Below, in pieces: positions 1-39,251 of a stretch of 64,000 nt of DNA. Position 1 is the stretch's first letter. Each line of letters opens with the position of its first letter. Origin of the DNA: Armatimonadota bacterium (GTDB taxonomy: Bacteria; Armatimonadota; Fimbriimonadia; Fimbriimonadales; Fimbriimonadaceae); contig JADFMN010000002.1 in NCBI GenBank assembly GCA_022563855.1, positions 124,001-188,000 of the forward strand, read 5' to 3'. Position numbers and translations under genes: made by a program. Under the pieces are notes generated by a model. It searched no databases. It was given only the letters and a program-made list of their open reading frames with translations, and had not been told where the DNA came from.

Positions 1-1412
1 TTGTTCACCGCCCCGTAGTTTCTTGTCGAGTGCAGCTGCGAGGCCCATTTCCGACCCGTTTCGTCGAGTTGTCCAAAGTCAATGAAAAACTGACAGTATC
101 CGACCCTTTTGAATGCCTCGTCGATAGATCCTTTCCTAGCCGCTGGAACGCTCCAAGCTTTCAACTTCCCATCGGTTCCAACAGCCCGGAACCCGCCTTC
201 GTAGAACGAGAACCCGACTGGGAAGTATTTTTCGCCGAGCGATTCAGCGAGGAACGCCCCGGTCATCATCGGCTTGTCGTTTACGAGGAGCCTGCTTACG
301 TGATAGTTATGCGCCCAAAGCATGACCTTCGCTCCGGGCAAATACGTGTCTTGTATCCAGAGCAAGTTTTCCGCCATGCTTTGATCTCTGTGTGCCGAAA
401 CGTTCAGCCCAGACATGCCTTGCGCGAGCGCGAGGAACTCTAAAACCTCTGCGCAACGTGTGTACGCCTGCGCTTTGTCGCCCTGTGAATTCGCGTACTT
501 TCTTATTGCCAGCGCACGTTTCATAAAGCTATCTTTGTCGACGCTCTCTTCTGCGACTCTCCTGTTCTCGTGCTCTACCAAGAACGACAGGCCTGCTTCG
601 ACACCATCTGGCATGTTCCTTGAGCCTTGCATCAGGTTCTCGACGGATTTGAACGTTTCAGCAAGATGTGGGAGCGCCTTGCTTCTGGCCCAGATGAAGT
701 GCTTGATCCTATTGTTGTCGACAGCCTGCTTGTACACGACGACCATACGCTCATAGAGCCTCGCGGCGTCCTCGCCGACCTTCTCCCTTACGACAGGTAA
801 GTCGCGCGAAACAATGTCTGCGAACTCTGACATCTGCTCGTCCGTCGGATCATCCCAACTCATCTCTTCCCAAAACTGCGCCTGACCATCGCTGTTCAAT
901 ATTCGACAAATCTTCTGAAAGTAGAGCGTGCACGTGGCTTGGTTCTGCATGTCGATTCCGACCACCCTGAGTTTCTGAAGATGCTCTGGGTCTGTGTTAT
1001 ACGTTCGCATCCATTCGAGCAGATCGACGATCTCCTCGGTCGACCACGTCCAGAATCCCTGTGCCCTAGCGGCCTCTTGTACGGATCCCTCACCGTAGAG
1101 GACATAGCGATCCAGAGCAACTGTATCCGACATGTTGGACTCTAGCGCGAACACGGTAAAGCCATGGTTCTCGACGAGGTATTCGAACATGCGGTGCTTC
1201 ATCTGGAACACCTCACGAGAGCCGTGCGTCGGCTCGCCCATTCCAACGACCTCGACACCTTGAAGCGACTTTGCCATCAGTGCCATGTCGTCGAACCCAT
1301 TTCCAGCGACGACAGTCTTCAATGGCAGAGAGGCCCTACTCAGTGACTCGATCAGCAGGTCGTCCGATAATTGCGTCTGACAGAGCAGCGCGGCTATAGT
1401 AAGGGCCAACAT
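1..1412 (-). CDS. Erythromycin esterase family protein, 3' end cut by window edge
   Basis: An open frame runs on the minus strand from an ATG at 1412 to the left edge with no stop, so the C-terminus is missing. AAGGAG lies 7 nt before the start. The first 20 residues look like a secretion signal (MLALTIAALLCQ). The erythromycin-esterase signatures are visible: GEPTHGSREV near residue 60 (Glu and His of the active site), FALESN near residue 90, and AHNYHVSR near residue 370. Family members hydrolyse macrolide lactones (EreA/B), but many environmental members have unknown substrates and are secreted or succinoglycan-linked, so resistance should not be assumed. It stands alone, with tRNA-Gln upstream. 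Confidence 0.85.
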   Translation of the reverse strand, partial: MLALTIAALLCQTQLSDDLLIESLSRASLPLKTVVAGNGFDDMALMAKSLQGVEVVGMGEPTHGSREVFQMKHRMFEYLVENHGFTVFALESNMSDTVALDRYVLYGEGSVQEAARAQGFWTWSTEEIVDLLEWMRTYNTDPEHLQKLRVVGIDMQNQATCTLYFQKICRILNSDGQAQFWEEMSWDDPTDEQMSEFADIVSRDLPVVREKVGEDAARLYERMVVVYKQAVDNNRIKHFIWARSKALPHLAETFKSVENLMQGSRNMPDGVEAGLSFLVEHENRRVAEESVDKDSFMKRALAIRKYANSQGDKAQAYTRCAEVLEFLALAQGMSGLNVSAHRDQSMAENLLWIQDTYLPGAKVMLWAHNYHVSRLLVNDKPMMTGAFLAESLGEKYFPVGFSFYEGGFRAVGTDGKLKAWSVPAARKGSIDEAFKRVGYCQFFIDFGQLDETGRKWASQLHSTRNYGAVN

Positions 1413-1474
1413 GAAGTACTCCTTCGAAGGGAATTATACGCGTTCTGTCGCACCGTGATTTTGAAATGAGTTGG

Positions 1475-1545
1475 CTGGCGGACTAAGATTCGAACTTAGA
1501 TAGCTACCACCAAAAAGTAGAGTCCTGCCATTAGACGATCCGCCA
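1475..1545 (-). tRNA. tRNA-Gln (anticodon TTG)
   Basis: Read on the minus strand it folds as a cloverleaf. The acceptor stem is TGGCGGA/TCCGCCA, the D-stem GTC/GAC, the anticodon stem CTACT/GGTAG with loop TTTTGGT (positions 34-36 TTG), and the T-arm CTAAG-TTCGAAT-CTTAG. The discriminator is G and no CCA is encoded. The anticodon reads CAA, glutamine. Confidence 0.93.
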
Positions 1546-1607
1546 ACATCCCGCATTATACAGCCTAGCCGAGAGCAGCGTGAGCCCGTGCCATACTCGT
1601 CGTTACG

Positions 1608-2714
1608 ATGTCTACTGGCGTGATGAAGGGCAGCAGGCTGGCGCGGCTTGCGGACGTTCTGAAGAGCGAGGGCGTGGATGCGCTGGTGCTGAGCAGTACC
1701 GTAAACATGGGGTATCTGCACGGCTTCACCGAGGGCGGGGGCGAGCGGTTCCTGACGCTCAGCATCCGTAGCGACGGGAGCGTGCGGATGATCTGCCCGT
1801 CGCTGAGCGAGAACCAGGCGCGGCGCTGCGGGATCGAGGACGTGCGGACGTGGAAGGACGGGGAAGACCCTATGGCGCACTACCGGCAGTTGGTCGAAGA
1901 CTGGGGGCTGGCGGACGCGACCGTCGCGGTCGACGACGAGATGCCCGCGCAGTACCTGTTGCCGATGCAGGCCGTCGCGCCCGGTGCAAAGTATCGCAAG
2001 GGGTTCTCGCTGATCGCTCAGCTCATGCGCAGGAAGGACCCGGAGGAGCTGGAGAACCTGTACAAGACTGCGCGGTACGCCGACGCGACTTGGGACGAGG
2101 TGATGCCTCAGATCAAGTCGGGCATGACCGAGTGGGACGTCGCGATGCTGCTGACGCAGGGGATGCAGAACCGCGGCGGCTTGGTCAGTTTCTGCATCGC
2201 CGCGACGGGAGCGAACGGCGCCGAGCCGCACCACTACACCGACCGGACGGTCATCCAGGACGGCGACGTGCTGATCATGGACTTCGGGTGCGGCTACAAG
2301 GGGTACCACAGCGACATCACGCGCACCGTCTGCGTCGGCCAGGCGAGCGACGAGGCGAAGAAGGTGTACGAGATCGTCCACGCCGCGCACATGGCCGCGC
2401 GAGAAGCCGCCAAGGAGGGCGTCGCCTGTCAAGAAGTCGATCGAGCAGCAAGGAAAGTAATCACGGACGCTGGGTACGGCGAGTTCTTCACACACCGCAC
2501 GGGCCACGGGCTTGGGATGCGCGTTCACGAGGAGCCGTACATGGTCGAAGGGAACACAGAACTGCTCGAAGAAGGGCACTGCTTCAGCGACGAGCCTGGA
2601 ATCTATCTGCCAGGGCGGTTTGGCGTGCGGATCGAGAACATCCTCCACATCGCGGGAGGTGTCGCGAAGAGCTTCAACGCAGAGCCCTCGCCGACCGTGA
2701 TCGAGCTTGGATAG
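1608..2714 (+). CDS. M24 family metallopeptidase (Xaa-Pro aminopeptidase-like)
   Basis: The product is 368 aa with an N-terminal creatinase-like domain (about 1-140) and a C-terminal pita-bread catalytic domain. The dinuclear metal ligands are present: D225 and D236 (MDFGCGYKGYHSD), H300 (HRTGHGLGM), the Glu of DEPGIY, and the Glu of RIENI. These ligands and the length fit cytosolic Xaa-Pro dipeptidases/aminopeptidases that cleave the bond before proline; the exact specificity cannot be read. No good Shine-Dalgarno is seen before ATG 1608, and ATG 1623 is an in-frame alternative. The gene is monocistronic and ends at a strong hairpin shared with the convergent neighbour. Confidence 0.9.
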   Translation: MSTGVMKGSRLARLADVLKSEGVDALVLSSTVNMGYLHGFTEGGGERFLTLSIRSDGSVRMICPSLSENQARRCGIEDVRTWKDGEDPMAHYRQLVEDWGLADATVAVDDEMPAQYLLPMQAVAPGAKYRKGFSLIAQLMRRKDPEELENLYKTARYADATWDEVMPQIKSGMTEWDVAMLLTQGMQNRGGLVSFCIAATGANGAEPHHYTDRTVIQDGDVLIMDFGCGYKGYHSDITRTVCVGQASDEAKKVYEIVHAAHMAAREAAKEGVACQEVDRAARKVITDAGYGEFFTHRTGHGLGMRVHEEPYMVEGNTELLEEGHCFSDEPGIYLPGRFGVRIENILHIAGGVAKSFNAEPSPTVIELG

Positions 2715-29635: not shown

Positions 29636-29763
29636 ACCTGGCGGTGAAAGATATCCGTTTGAGATATCGCATCCTTCGCCTCCAGTTTCATCTATAGTCC
29701 GCCAAAATCAGCTCACAATGTGAGAGAATAGGTTGTTGAGCTGTCATGAATGGAGAAACAGCA

Positions 29764-30168
29764 ATGAATAGACTCTTATCAGAAGAGGAAGCCGACGGCA
29801 AGGTCGCCGAGGTGTATGCGGAGATCGAGGAGGAGTTCGGCAAGGTTCCAAACTTCTTCAAAGCGCAGGCTGCGGTGGACGCTGAGTGGCTCGAAGTGAA
29901 CTGGCAAAGACAGAAGCTTATCATGCTTTCTTCCGGCGGTCTCGACCGCAAAACGCGAGAGCTGATCGCCTATGCGGTTTCTTCGGTCAATCAGAACGAG
30001 TACTGCTGCGTCGCACATGAGGGAATGGCACGAGACAGCGGCGCCACCGACCAGGAAATCGATCAGACCAGACAGATCATCGAGCTGTTCTGCAGCTTCA
30101 ATGCAATCGCAGAAACCTTGCGCGTGCCGATCGATATCGGCCCGGTAGTCCCTGTGGACGCTTCGTAG
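29764..30168 (+). CDS. AhpD/carboxymuconolactone decarboxylase family peroxidase-like protein
   Basis: The 134-aa product is all-helical, with the AhpD-like active-site segment NEYCCVAHEGMARD (about 79-92; Cys-x3-His type) preceded by LDRKTRELIAYAVSSVN. Members are small alkylhydroperoxidases or peroxidase-related proteins. The typical CxxC pair is replaced by adjacent cysteines (CC) before VAH, so the chemistry may differ. ATG 29764 is chosen for GGAG 8 nt upstream; ATG 29746 is in frame. An integron attC site, in the orientation that would make this gene its cassette gene, lies 128 bp downstream. Confidence 0.8.
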   Translation: MNRLLSEEEADGKVAEVYAEIEEEFGKVPNFFKAQAAVDAEWLEVNWQRQKLIMLSSGGLDRKTRELIAYAVSSVNQNEYCCVAHEGMARDSGATDQEIDQTRQIIELFCSFNAIAETLRVPIDIGPVVPVDAS

Positions 30169-30296
30169 GACCTCGCAGGCCAACAAGATGCCCAGCGGTC
30201 GCAGACAATCCGCGCCCTAGCCGGGAGGGACAGGGGGACAAACCCTCGGGACGGGTCTGCTGGCTTGGGCTACCAGTGGCGATAGGACAGTTCTGA

Positions 30297-30369
30297 CCCC
30301 TAACAAGTCGCTCCAACCGACGGACTTGCGGTCGCGCCGCTCGTCCGTCGGTGAACTCGGTCGTTGGGC
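30297..30369 (+). mobile_element. Integron attC recombination site
   Basis: The site runs from CCCCTAAC (inverse core, R'') to GTTGGGC (core GTTRRRY, R') over 73 bp. Between them lie AAGTCGCTCCA, the perfect 10-bp arms ACCGACGGAC/GTCCGTCGGT (30316-30325, 30343-30352), and GAACTCGGTC. The order and the characteristic unpaired spacers agree with classical attC sites read in the plus direction. It ends 7 bp before the stop codon of the convergent MDR gene. No integrase gene is present in the window. Confidence 0.75.
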
Positions 30370-30376
30370 GATTGCC

Positions 30377-31414
30377 CTAGTTCTCTGACCACGGCAACAG
30401 CACGAGGTTTCCGCTGACCTTGCCGGCAGCGATCAGGCGATGAGCCTCTGCCGCCTTGCTGAGCGGAAGAGTGCGGTCGAGCACCGGCTTGATGCGGCCC
30501 GCACGGACCTGCTCCAGTCCCCATTCGAGGTCCTCGATGTCGCTCGCCATCGAGCCGCGGAGCTGTTTCTGGGCAAAGAACAGGCTTCGAATGTCGAACT
30601 TGACTTCGGGACCGGCCGCAAAGCCGAAGGCGACGATAACGCCCATGGGCTTCGTGGCTTCAATGCTCTTGGCCAAGACGTCTCCAGCGAGGTTGTCGAT
30701 CACGACGTCGGCGCCGACTCCGTCCGTCCATGCCGTGACGCGCTCGACGAAGTCCTCGTTGCGAGTGTTGATCACAAGGTCCGCGCCCAGCTCTCTGGCA
30801 AATTCGACCTTCTCATCGCTACGAACCGTCGTCGCGACGTCCGCGCCCAGCGCCTTGGCGACCTGAATCTGCATGCTGCCGGAACCGGAAACGCCTGCAT
30901 GAATCAGAACCTTGTCGCCGGCCTTGACTTCGCCGACCTGTTTGAGAGCATGTACAGCCGTCGCCAGAACGACCGGAAGCGTAGCCGCCTCTTCGGGCGT
31001 AAGCCCAGTCTCATCTTTGATAACGGCGTAGGCAGGGACTTCCATGTACTGTGCGTAAGTCCCGGAGATGTGCAGCCCTGGCAATGCAAAGCTCGGGGCG
31101 GCTATCGCAGGACGGACGTCGGTCTCGTCCGCGTTTTGCGGATATCCCGGGGCTACGATCACTCGCTCGCCAGTGCGGAAGCCGGTGACTCCTTCCCCGA
31201 GCTCGGCTACTTCGCCAGCGGCGTCTGCGCCGAGAATGTGCGGGAACGGAAGTTCAGGAACGATGATTCCTTCGCGGATGTAGTGGTCCAGGCGGTTGAC
31301 GCCTGCTGCGAGCACTTTGACCAGGACGTGGCCGGGTCTCGGGCTCGGCACGTCGATGTCTTCGTACTTGAGCACGTCGATGTCGCCGAATTCGTGAATT
31401 ACTGTTGCTTTCAT
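30377..31414 (-). CDS. Zinc-independent MDR oxidoreductase (quinone oxidoreductase-like)
   Basis: The 345-aa product has an N-terminal GroES-like domain (about 1-130, HILGADAAGEVAELG) and a Rossmann domain with HAGVSGSGSMQIQVAKALGA (about 166-185) for NADPH. The four-Cys structural zinc loop of alcohol dehydrogenases is absent. It probably reduces quinones or enones with NADPH in detoxification. It is the first of a run of minus-strand genes each flanked by repeats. Its stop lies against the attC site, and repeat A lies directly upstream of its start. Confidence 0.88.
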   Translation of the reverse strand: MKATVIHEFGDIDVLKYEDIDVPSPRPGHVLVKVLAAGVNRLDHYIREGIIVPELPFPHILGADAAGEVAELGEGVTGFRTGERVIVAPGYPQNADETDVRPAIAAPSFALPGLHISGTYAQYMEVPAYAVIKDETGLTPEEAATLPVVLATAVHALKQVGEVKAGDKVLIHAGVSGSGSMQIQVAKALGADVATTVRSDEKVEFARELGADLVINTRNEDFVERVTAWTDGVGADVVIDNLAGDVLAKSIEATKPMGVIVAFGFAAGPEVKFDIRSLFFAQKQLRGSMASDIEDLEWGLEQVRAGRIKPVLDRTLPLSKAAEAHRLIAAGKVSGNLVLLPWSEN

Positions 31415-31423
31415 CTGAGTTTC

Positions 31424-31508
31424 CTCGTTACGCGGTTACAAGGGCCTCGCAGCGCCTCCCGGTTCCCCACATTTGCGGCGGGAGGCTTGGCTGAGTCCTA
31501 AAGACCCA
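31424..31508. repeat. Intergenic repeat, copy A
   Basis: About 85 bp, roughly 87% identical to copy B (32741). Shared blocks are CTCGTTACGCGG, TACAAGGGC, CGGTTCCCC, TTGGCT and TAAAGACCC. In this copy only, arms GCCTCCCG/CGGGAGGC could form a hairpin. Confidence 0.75.
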
Positions 31509-31563
31509 TGTGCTGCGAAGGTTACCAGAATTGCGGTTCTCGGAGTCGTGAGTGTGCCCGCCG

Positions 31564-32637
31564 TTAGCGCGTCTCCGAGGTCATGAAGTTGCGGATCAGC
31601 TTCGCGATGACATCGCCGTCTTCTTCAAGGGCAAAATGCCCGGTGTCCAGCAGGTGAAATTCGAGGTTCTTCAAATCCCGCTTGTACGGGTGTGCGCCCG
31701 CAGCCGGGAAAATCTCGTCGTTCGCGCCCCACACGATCAGCGTCCGCGGCTGGTGCTCGCGAAAATACGCTTGCCAGCTAGGATACAGAGGCGGGTTGCT
31801 GCCGTAGTCGTAGAACAGTTGAAGTTGAATCTCCGCATTTCCCGGCCGATCCAGGAGTCTCTGCGTGACGTGCCAATTGTCGGGGCTGATCGTCTCCGGG
31901 TTACGAACGCCGTTGGTGTACTGCCATTTCGTCGCGTCCAGGGTCACGAGAAAGCGGATCGCGTCTTCGTTCGCCATATTGGGCTGCTTGTAAGCAGCCT
32001 TGACGTTTTTCCACCATTCGTTGTCAAGACCCTTGTTGACGGCCCCACGATCTTTCCAGTACTCCTTGATCGGCTCCCAGAAATCATTGTCAATTCCTTC
32101 GACGTAGGCGTTGCCGTTCTGGATGATGAGCGAATCGATGCGCTCGGGGTGTTTAGCTGCCAGACGGAAGCCGATCGGAGCACCGTAGTCCATCAGGTAG
32201 AGGCTGTAGTGATCGAGGCCAAGCTCCTCAGTGAACTTGTCGATGATTTGGCTGAGATAGTCGAACGTGTAGTCGAACTCATCGACCGCAGGCATCGAAC
32301 TGTTCCCGTATCCGGGGTAGTCCGGCGCCACCAAATGAAACTGGTCTGCCAGTGCAGGGATAAGATCCCGGAACATGTGCGAAGAAGTCGGAAAACCGTG
32401 CAGCAATAGTAGGGTCGGTGCATCTGGCGAACCGGCCTCGCGATAGAAGATCGTTTGCCCATCGATTTCGATCGTGCGGTGCATGACCTGGTTCGTGTCG
32501 GCAATCTTGGCTTGGTTCGTATCGGCGATCTTGGTCTGAGTCTCCTCACTCCCGGACAGCAGCGGCGCAAACATGACAAGGGACGTTCCCAAGGCGAATC
32601 TCATGGGATTGTTAGTGAACATTTTCGTTAGATTCAT
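31564..32637 (-). CDS. Exported alpha/beta hydrolase (epoxide hydrolase / haloalkane dehalogenase type)
   Basis: The 357-aa product has a signal-like N-terminus ([17 protein letters not shown]) and an alpha/beta fold with the oxyanion motif [14 protein letters not shown] (about 77-90). The nucleophile elbow [12 protein letters not shown] carries Asp (about 151), which points to epoxide hydrolase or dehalogenase chemistry rather than esterase. The acid is in WGANDEIF and the base in [10 protein letters not shown]. Just after the signal an eight-residue unit KIADTNQ(A/V) is repeated in tandem (about 37-52). It lies between repeats A and B. Confidence 0.88.
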
Positions 32638-32995
32638 GATTAGATTCCTGGGCCAACTTAATCAAGTTGACCTGTGCCCGGCAGCGTTGCCGCGCACTTG
32701 AGTGACAAGCGCTCCGCCCTGCGGCGATACACCTCTCGAACTCGTTACGCGGCTACAAGGGCGGAGCAGCGCGTCACGGTTCCCCGCATTTGTGGCAGGA
32801 GGTTTGGCTTAGTCTAAAGACCCGTATCCGGCGGGTGGCCTGTGGTGACCACGAACGTACCACTCGTGTGCCCTCCACGGATCCACGTCCTGAGGCAGTT
32901 AGCTCCGGCTAGACCCCGGCCGAATACTTCCGTGCTCCGCCAGCGAGTGCGAACGGCGCGACAGCCCGTCAGTCCGGGCGCTGAGAAAGAAGCCG
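32638..32995. other. Intergenic region holding repeat B
   Basis: This 358-bp gap holds repeat B (32741-32824). A right-hand block at about 32946-32985 (GCGCGACAGCCCGT) recurs beside copy C at 34098. No coding sequence is seen. Confidence 0.5.
32741..32824. repeat. Intergenic repeat, copy B
   Basis: 84 bp with about 11 differences from copy A. It lies between the hydrolase and MOSC genes. The hairpin arms of copy A are not conserved here. Confidence 0.75.
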
Positions 32996-33643
32996 CTATC
33001 CCGAAAGCCTCTCAAGCTGATGCTCGAAAAAGCCACGCCAACGCTCGGGTAGAACCTCGACGGTAACGGCCTTTCGCAGGAGCGGCTCGTTTGCGCGATC
33101 CGTCGTGTAGAGGCGCGTGACGTCGGCGACGCTCAGCCCGGCCGGGTGCTCCGAAACGCGCTCAAGGCTGTCGCCCGCCTGGATCTGGCCCTCCTCGACG
33201 ACGCCGAAATAAAAGCCGGTGCGCTGGCTCTGCAAGAACCGCTTCACCATGTCATCGCGGCCGAAGCGAATCCCGAGCTTGAAGCAGGGCATCCGGGGCT
33301 CGGTAACGACCACGCGGGCGCTGCCGACCTGAAACTCATCACCGATGTTTATGGTCTCTTCGTCCGCTCCATCAACGGTCAAGTTCTCACCGAACGCCCC
33401 CCAACCAAGCTCGGCGTCAGGTAGCTCGCCACGCCAGAACTCATAGTGCTGGGACGAATAGACGTAGACCGCCTTCGTCGGTCCGCCATGCACTGAGAGG
33501 TCCGCCTGTCGGTCGCCCTCGAGGTTGTGCCGCCGAAGCGCCACGATGCCGTCCACTGGAAACTTGAAAATCCCGGTCGTCACGGTCTTACCCTTCCAAC
33601 TGACCTCACGAGGAAGTCCGACGTTGACGGAGACCAGTTTCAC
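32996..33643 (-). CDS. MOSC domain protein (YiiM-like)
   Basis: The 215-aa product matches YiiM-type MOSC proteins: KLVSVNVGLPREVSWKGK at the start, LEGDRQADLSVHGGPTKAVYV (about 43-63), GENLTVDG, and the sulfur-handling cysteine in TEPRMPCFKLGIRFG (about 118-132). A C-terminal 3-alpha domain follows (SVADVTRLY). YiiM reduces N-hydroxylated base analogues with molybdenum cofactor. GTG 33643 overlaps the stop of the preceding ORF (GTGA), so it is translationally coupled. A longer in-frame start at 33691 lies inside that ORF. Confidence 0.88.
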   Translation of the reverse strand: MKLVSVNVGLPREVSWKGKTVTTGIFKFPVDGIVALRRHNLEGDRQADLSVHGGPTKAVYVYSSQHYEFWRGELPDAELGWGAFGENLTVDGADEETINIGDEFQVGSARVVVTEPRMPCFKLGIRFGRDDMVKRFLQSQRTGFYFGVVEEGQIQAGDSLERVSEHPAGLSVADVTRLYTTDRANEPLLRKAVTVEVLPERWRGFFEHQLERLSG

Positions 33644-33939
33644 GCGGCCCTCACTTTCAAATCCCGACTCCGCGAACCGGCGCCCTTCCACAGGACGTAC
33701 GGGCTCATCACGTTGACGACCAGCGGGATGTTCGGCTCGTTCGGTTGCAGATGGAACAGGGACGGATCGTCCACCACCATGTGCACGCTGGTCGCTACCC
33801 CCATGATTCCCGTCAGCATCACGGCCGCTGCGCGGACGGGATCGCCTTGTTCGAGAAGTTGATAGCCAGCGGGAGTTCCGGTATGGCCGCCTGCTGATGC
33901 GACTAGGATATTTGCCTTCTTCACTAGTTCTTGCTCCAA
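33640..33939 (-). CDS. Hybrid ORF: NmrA-like N-terminus joined to an unrelated hydrophobic segment
   Basis: The 99-aa frame starts VKKANILVASAGGHTGTPAG, which aligns with the start of the intact NmrA protein (KKNNILILVTGAAGKTGAPV at 34418), up to about residue 37 (GDPVRA). The rest (AAVMLTGIMGVATSVHMVVD ... NIPLVVNVMSPYVLW) is unrelated to NmrA and looks like part of a small membrane protein. It is probably a fusion made by recombination between two degraded genes. It still overlaps the MOSC start by 4 bp and may serve to couple translation. Confidence 0.5.
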   Translation of the reverse strand: MEQELVKKANILVASAGGHTGTPAGYQLLEQGDPVRAAAVMLTGIMGVATSVHMVVDDPSLFHLQPNEPNIPLVVNVMSPYVLWKGAGSRSRDLKVRAA

Positions 33940-33957
33940 TGTTTCGACATCGGTCGA

Positions 33958-34005
33958 GTCGTTATGCCGCTACAAGGGCATGACGGCGCTCTACGGTTCC
34001 CCTGA
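33958..34005. repeat. Intergenic repeat, copy C (partial)
   Basis: About 48 bp matches the left half of copies A and B (GTCGTTATGCCGCTACAAGG, then CGGTTCCCC). The right half (CATTTG ... TAAAGACCC) is missing. Confidence 0.6.
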
Positions 34006-34149
34006 ACCTGTTACAGTACCCAGGAAGAACCATAAGGATCCTTGTGTGGCTGAATCGCCCGCGTCCGTCATCGGAAGTACTCGCAGTAAGGGCGAACTGC
34101 GCGACAGCCCGTGAGCCGGGACGCCGGGCGAAATCAACGTTAAAGTTCA

Positions 34150-34251
34150 ACAGCACTAGAGACGGCCCGGTATTCGCGGCGGCCCGCCGATCCGCTCGAC
34201 GGCGTCTCTCTTGTCGCGGAATATCTCGTTCCGGCAGTCGGCGGCGACCGC
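34150..34251 (-). pseudogene. NmrA-family C-terminal remnant, inverted relative to the intact gene
   Basis: On the minus strand this reads AVAADCRNEIFRDKRDAVER then IGG, against KAVAVDHQNGIFRGETDVVER then IGG near the end of the intact NmrA protein. After a short deletion and frameshift it continues REYRAVS, against REHRAVF. It is a broken copy with no start. Confidence 0.65.
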
Positions 34252-38273: not shown

Positions 38274-39251
38274 ATGAACGTTGAAGTAGAAACCTCGAAG
38301 AGAATCACCGACGTACAGGAGGAGGCTTCTGCCTGGGATGCGCTGCTCGACAAATCCCAGGCGGGTGAGCGCCTTACCCCGCTCAAAGTCCTCCAAGGGC
38401 AGCCAGTCGGGCGGCGAACCGCGCTGAAGCGTTTCGCGAGCACAGTTTTCGGCGTGCTCGCCGCACCGCTCGTGCTGGGTGAGGCGGAAGATGACGCGCT
38501 GGCCACGGTCTCGCTAGACTCGATGCCGGCCTTGCCTGATCCAACCCTCGGCGAAGACATCTTGATCCGCATGATGCGCGAGCTTCGAACGGCCTTGAAA
38601 AAGCCAGTCGAAGAGCGCCGCTGGGTCATGGTGATCGACCTGCAAAAATGCATCGGATGCCATTCGTGCACCATCGCGTGCGTGGTCGAGAACAAACTTC
38701 CGCCCGGGGTTGTGTACCGGCCGGTCATTGAAGAGGAGATCGGCACTTACCCGAACGTTGGTCGGCGATTCCTTCCGCGTCCCTGTATGCAGTGCGACGA
38801 ACCGCCCTGCGTGCCCGTCTGCCCGGTCGGAGCGACCTGGAAGGCTGTGGACGGCGTGGTCCACATCGACTACAACAAGTGCATCGGATGCCGTTACTGC
38901 ATCACCGCTTGTCCGTACGGCGCTCGCACGTTTGACTTTGGCGAGCACTACACGGACGACACCCCCTTTATCGCAGAGCATGAGAAAATGCCTTCCTATG
39001 AGTACGGAAAGAACTGGACTCGGGAAGACGATAAGTCGCCAGTCGGCAACGTCCGAAAGTGCCACTTCTGCCTGCATCGCGTAAGAGAGGGCAAGCTGCC
39101 GATGTGCGTATCGAGCTGCATCGGTCGGGCGACGTACTTCGGTGACGCCAACGATGAGGAGAGCCTCGTGGCCGAGCTGATCAGCAAGCCCAACGTCATG
39201 CGCTTGAAGGAGGAGTTAGGCACGAAGCCTCGCGTCTACTATCTCACATAG
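38274..39251 (+). CDS. Four-cluster ferredoxin subunit of a molybdoenzyme (TtrB/NrfC/PsrB-like)
   Basis: The 325-aa product has a long N-terminal region with a possible twin-arginine signal ([20 protein letters not shown], about 44-63). Cysteine groups for four [4Fe-4S] clusters follow: [11 protein letters not shown] (about 126-136), [26 protein letters not shown] and CHFCLHR...CVSSC. It passes electrons between the membrane NrfD-type subunit and the molybdenum subunit. It is the first gene of the operon, with AAGGAAG 8 nt before ATG; the next gene begins 10 bp after the stop. Gene order B-C-A matches ttrBCA of tetrathionate reductases. Confidence 0.9.

Follow-up and report, generated by a model that had tools for sequence, protein, structure and literature searches.

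The window, i.e. the whole 64-kb stretch of DNA that was analysed, contains just downstream of the gene lnt a plus-strand gene for a carboxymuconolactone decarboxylase (CMD)/AhpD-like protein, an attC site and, in the converging direction, a run of minus-strand genes comprising those for an MDR quinone-oxidoreductase-like protein, an alpha/beta-hydrolase, a MOSC protein and an NmrA-like remnant, together with three related intergenic repeats (A, B and C). The coordinates are collected in Table 1.

Table 1. Positions in the window of the candidate cassette and of the features of the minus-strand region
Feature	Position	Strand	Basis or remark
GTTGAGC, candidate left cassette boundary (GTTRRRY; crossover G^TT)	29735..29741	+	motif scan
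Cassette ORF, carboxymuconolactone decarboxylase/AhpD-core protein	29746..30168	+	PF02627, E 5e-15; TIGR00778 above cut-off
attC	30298..30369	+	R'' CCCTAAC, L''/L' stem ACCGACGGAC/GTCCGTCGGT, R' GTTGGGC
MDR quinone-oxidoreductase-like gene	30377..31414	-	PF00107/PF08240; convergent with the cassette and outside it
Repeat A, leader-like, 5' of the MDR gene, not attC	31424..31517	-	sequence comparison, attC model
Repeat B, leader-like, 5' of the hydrolase gene, not attC	32741..32833	-	sequence comparison, attC model
Repeat C, leader-like, 5' of the NmrA remnant/MOSC unit, not attC	33959..34002	-	sequence comparison, attC model

On the plus strand the attC has the layout CCCTAAC AAGTCGCTCCA ACCGACGGAC ... 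GTCCGTCGGT GAACTCGGTC GTTGGGC, and it ends 7 nt short of the end of the MDR ORF. A preliminary description of this DNA had already placed an attC at 30297-30369 against the 3' end of that gene, which was accurate but for the first base. The site was scored with an attC covariance model that we built from 16 sites, taken from gammaproteobacterial and other arrays (by pattern scan), from the R46 integron and, in one case, from the relative G018, with the attC of the window excluded from training. The model, which also recovers the attCs of the R46 plasmid cassettes and those in arrays of other genomes (several of these sites were in its training set), assigns 39.9 bits to the site, corresponding to an E-value of 3e-7 for the window and 1.5e-5 for the whole genome, and thereby gives a significant outcome for the check that the preliminary description had proposed. 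A stricter, rule-based scan for R boxes and stem over both strands of the window recovers this attC as its sole match, and the same scan of 40 dinucleotide-shuffled windows yielded no match with an equal stem. The R''/L''/L'/R' architecture is thus found by the covariance model, by the strict pattern and in the predicted fold. For the bottom strand, an R-box-paired fold is predicted with a probability of 0.50, versus 0.20 for the top strand, a value that falls within the range (0.01-0.95) of the other array and mobile attCs tried. The predicted fold is compatible with an attC and proves nothing alone, because shuffles of the interior in which the R boxes are kept often equal it (a similar fold probability in 44 of 300). 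The attC is genuine.

No second convincing attC was recovered from the 64-kb window by the covariance model, also with its filters off; the next-best candidate, at 39188-39221 on the minus strand (16.3 bits), spans 34 nt, has no L boxes and was taken as a chance match. Genome-wide there are two convincing attCs, namely the one in the window and one on a 4.4-kb contig (G000:C22:266-323, E 4.8e-5). The latter (locus L071, G000:C22:1-4397; 37.8 bits) is directly followed by a methyltransferase ORF (357-980) and a transposase of the IS630 family (982-2049, minus strand); the contig is short, its ownership in this 22-contig assembly is uncertain and it may be a contaminant. A BLAST comparison of the attC of the window with relatives and plasmids produced one informative match (74%), to a site on the Geoalkalibacter plasmid pGSUB1. 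That plasmid carries a single attC-like site (L066, 3997-4067; 33.4 bits by the attC model), which lies directly 3' of a DNA methyltransferase gene and whose L'/R' half closely resembles that of the attC in the window.

Since the R boxes and the model both read on the plus strand, the gene that goes with the attC is the CMD/AhpD-like ORF, as the preliminary description had remarked by way of a formal assignment. The ORF is located 5' of the attC and in the same orientation (+), as in a cassette; it probably starts at the ATG at 29764, after GGAGA, and has a GC content of 54.8% versus 60.3% for the window. The motif GTTRRRY occurs only twice between 29501 and 30400, namely as GTTGAGC at 29735, just 5' of the ORF, and as GTTGGGC at 30363, the R' box of the attC, and the two motifs delimit a candidate cassette of 628 bp (about 29736-30363). 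We estimate the chance of finding a GTTRRRY within some 36 nt 5' of a start codon at about 3-4%, and the assignment of GTTGAGC as the left boundary is suggestive only. The distance from the crossover to the ATG would be 28 nt, which resembles the 25-28 bp at the corresponding position in deformylase cassettes (PMC12690207); the 129 nt between stop codon and attC are above what is found in many cassettes. Upstream of the candidate boundary there is a perfect palindrome, CTCACAATGTGAG, at 29712-29724, which is operator-like and could help to drive the cassette gene from outside.

The phylogenetic distribution of the CMD gene is sporadic: a counterpart at E <= 1e-10 was absent from all 60 relatives searched, versus the presence of lnt in 50 of the same 60. 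Twelve further genomes of the phylum set have weak homologues (30-42% identity), and close homologues of the protein were absent from genome_contigs and viral_contigs. At the locus itself the relatives share only AAA-lnt, except for G001, the sole congener compared, which is 68% complete and lacks lnt; none of them offers an empty site for comparison. As far as such presence and absence can tell, a sporadic gene beside a widespread one is what a cassette looks like, and not a core gene. In AhpD-type enzymes a CxxC pair is usual. The CMD protein reads NQNEYCCVAH at that position, and a classical peroxidase activity is therefore doubtful.

The genome (3.18 Mb) was searched for integron integrases with the family profile TIGR02249. 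No protein reaches the cut-off of 265 bits, the best match scoring 88.9 bits, and no IntI-like stretch was detected in the window with the IntI proteins of relatives as queries (best E about 1). The lack of an integrase that the preliminary description had noted locally thus extends to the genome at this cut-off, and with it the combination of IntI, attI and cassettes that makes up a complete integron is absent. Because the genome is estimated to be 96% complete, an intI gene could still lie in the unseen part. Integrases above the cut-off are present in four of 101 genomes (G018, G058, G074 and G092, at 430-442 bits), the first three of which belong to the same family as the host; attCs lie near the IntI genes of G074 and G018.

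The observed attC and its polarity, the absent IntI, the sporadic CMD gene and the want of a second convincing attC in the window are best explained, with a probability that we put at roughly 0.72, by a single captured integron cassette that lies outside any integron on a chromosome without IntI. In current usage, one attC without an integrase is a SALIN (PMC12690207), which IntegronFinder can report at a calin-threshold of 1, and single-attC CALINs can be true positives according to the IntegronFinder 2.0 paper (PMC9024848). The locus shares with SALINs the single significant attC, the lack of an integrase and the cassette-like ORF directly 5', and there is no essential difference, with the provision that the attC was called here by a home-built covariance model and that one further attC exists elsewhere, on contig C22. 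It differs from a CALIN, a cluster of attC sites lacking integrase in which IntegronFinder 2.0 expects at least two attCs (PMC9024848), in that the window holds one attC and that repeats A, B and C have no overlapping attC match.

Mechanistically, we envisage that a promoterless CMD/AhpD-like ORF with an attC on its 3' side constituted one cassette, and that IntI, in an earlier host or a transient one, inserted the circular cassette through the folded bottom strand of its attC into a non-integron chromosomal site of the attG-like type G^TT. IntI is described as acting on the bottom strand of attC in its folded form and as being able to use targets other than attI and attC (attG), in the work of Loot et al. 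2024 as cited in PMC12444791 and PMC12901181. The insertions into attG and secondary sites reported there, as far as these citations go, share with our locus the single cassette, the non-integron context and, if the candidate boundary is right, the GTT left junction; they differ in that a natural insertion event is here deduced and not observed. Without a resident IntI the cassette would now stay in place and move only if IntI were to arrive in trans.

The preliminary description had instead considered an integrase-less attC cluster or the decayed end of an array, in which the MDR, hydrolase, MOSC and NmrA genes would be minus-strand cassettes and repeats A, B and C their degenerate attCs. The serial occurrence of accessory-type genes, with three related intergenic repeats and an attC at one end, gives this idea its appeal, and A, B and C do constitute a genuine three-copy repeat (in an alignment of about 84 nt, A and B are 86% identical, with an E-value near 1e-20). 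However, the repeats do not follow the genes, as had been described, but precede them, ending 10 nt (A, MDR), 104 nt (B, hydrolase) and 20 nt (C, NmrA remnant) from the respective starts; there is no minus-strand gene ahead of C, and the polarity of the one convincing attC is opposite to that of the run. The attC model with its filters off returns no match overlapping A, B or C; the one weak match that it gives among these genes, at 33036-33095 (9.6 bits, E 1), falls within the MOSC gene. When folded as single-stranded DNA, only A does better than shuffled sequences (z -2.4, versus about -0.4 for B and C), and the three have no strong fold in common. On account of the missing model match, the missing common fold and the position 5' instead of 3' of the genes, A, B and C were rejected as attCs, and a decayed array is very improbable. 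The repeats were rejected as known RNAs as well, there being no Rfam match, and copies with up to 3 mismatches were found neither elsewhere in the genome nor in 120 relatives. To judge by their placement, they are better described as a probable shared 5' leader, duplicated in front of three transcription units, and the best reading of the minus-strand redox, hydrolase and MOSC genes is that of an independent block unrelated to the cassette. The apparent minus-strand 'array' is thereby corrected: its repeats are something else.

That the attC is a hairpin that mimics such a site by chance is also very unlikely, although marginally less so than the decayed array: the genome is GC-rich, the site stands by itself and the fold probability does not discriminate, but the genome-wide E-value, the shuffled windows (0 equal strict matches in 40), the matching R boxes, the L-box stem and the single extrahelical base all speak against it. 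More serious, and still unlikely, is the possibility that a resident integron has lost its intI, attI and other cassettes by deletion and that only the terminal attC with its cassette was left behind. Within the same family, G018, G058 and G074 do have integrons with IntI, and attCs lie near those of G074 and G018. The right half of the R' box, TTGGGC, is moreover consensus-like, a match that is not required of a random attG target; this suggests that the site may once have adjoined an attI or a further cassette, as expected for such a remnant, and points against a random attG. We favour this deletion less than the captured cassette because no trace of intI or of a second attC remains, the 64-kb window having yielded neither an IntI fragment nor another convincing attC; in addition, the CMD ORF lies 110 nt from the upstream gene, which is too little space for a remnant of attI and intI.

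Single attCs in genomes without an IntI above the cut-off are also found in G055 (E 2.2e-6) and G017 (E 9.5e-6), both of the same family as the host, and in G040 (E 7.6e-4) and G036 (E 0.008), both of the same order. At E <= 0.01, a search of 121 genomes should give about one match by chance, and the match in G036 is possibly such a case. G112 has a significant attC site as well; this genome lay outside the IntI screen. A tentative generalization would be that transient integrases scatter single cassettes via attG-like targets across the intI-less genomes of the order (the host, G017, G055, G040 and perhaps G036). If true, integron cassettes spread well beyond the genomes that keep an integron. 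The captured cassette adds to a known kind, namely the stray attC as a leftover of horizontal gene transfer, and would provide a natural example for the idea, shown by experiment with attG insertions, that cassettes can become established at non-integron sites of genomes that lack an integrase.

Two minor observations concern the minus-strand region. At 33640-33939 (minus strand), overlapping the start of the MOSC gene, an NmrA-like N-terminus seemingly continues into a C-terminal part that resembles DoxX (weak match to PF13564), and this ORF is probably a fusion or deletion remnant. Finally, a dispersed repeat of some 26-30 nt with the consensus GGCGAACGGCGCGAYAGCCCGTGAGCATC is present at 32941-32981 and 34084-34124 of the window; it is REP-like, with 41 BLAST matches over many contigs that represent about 40 places in G000.
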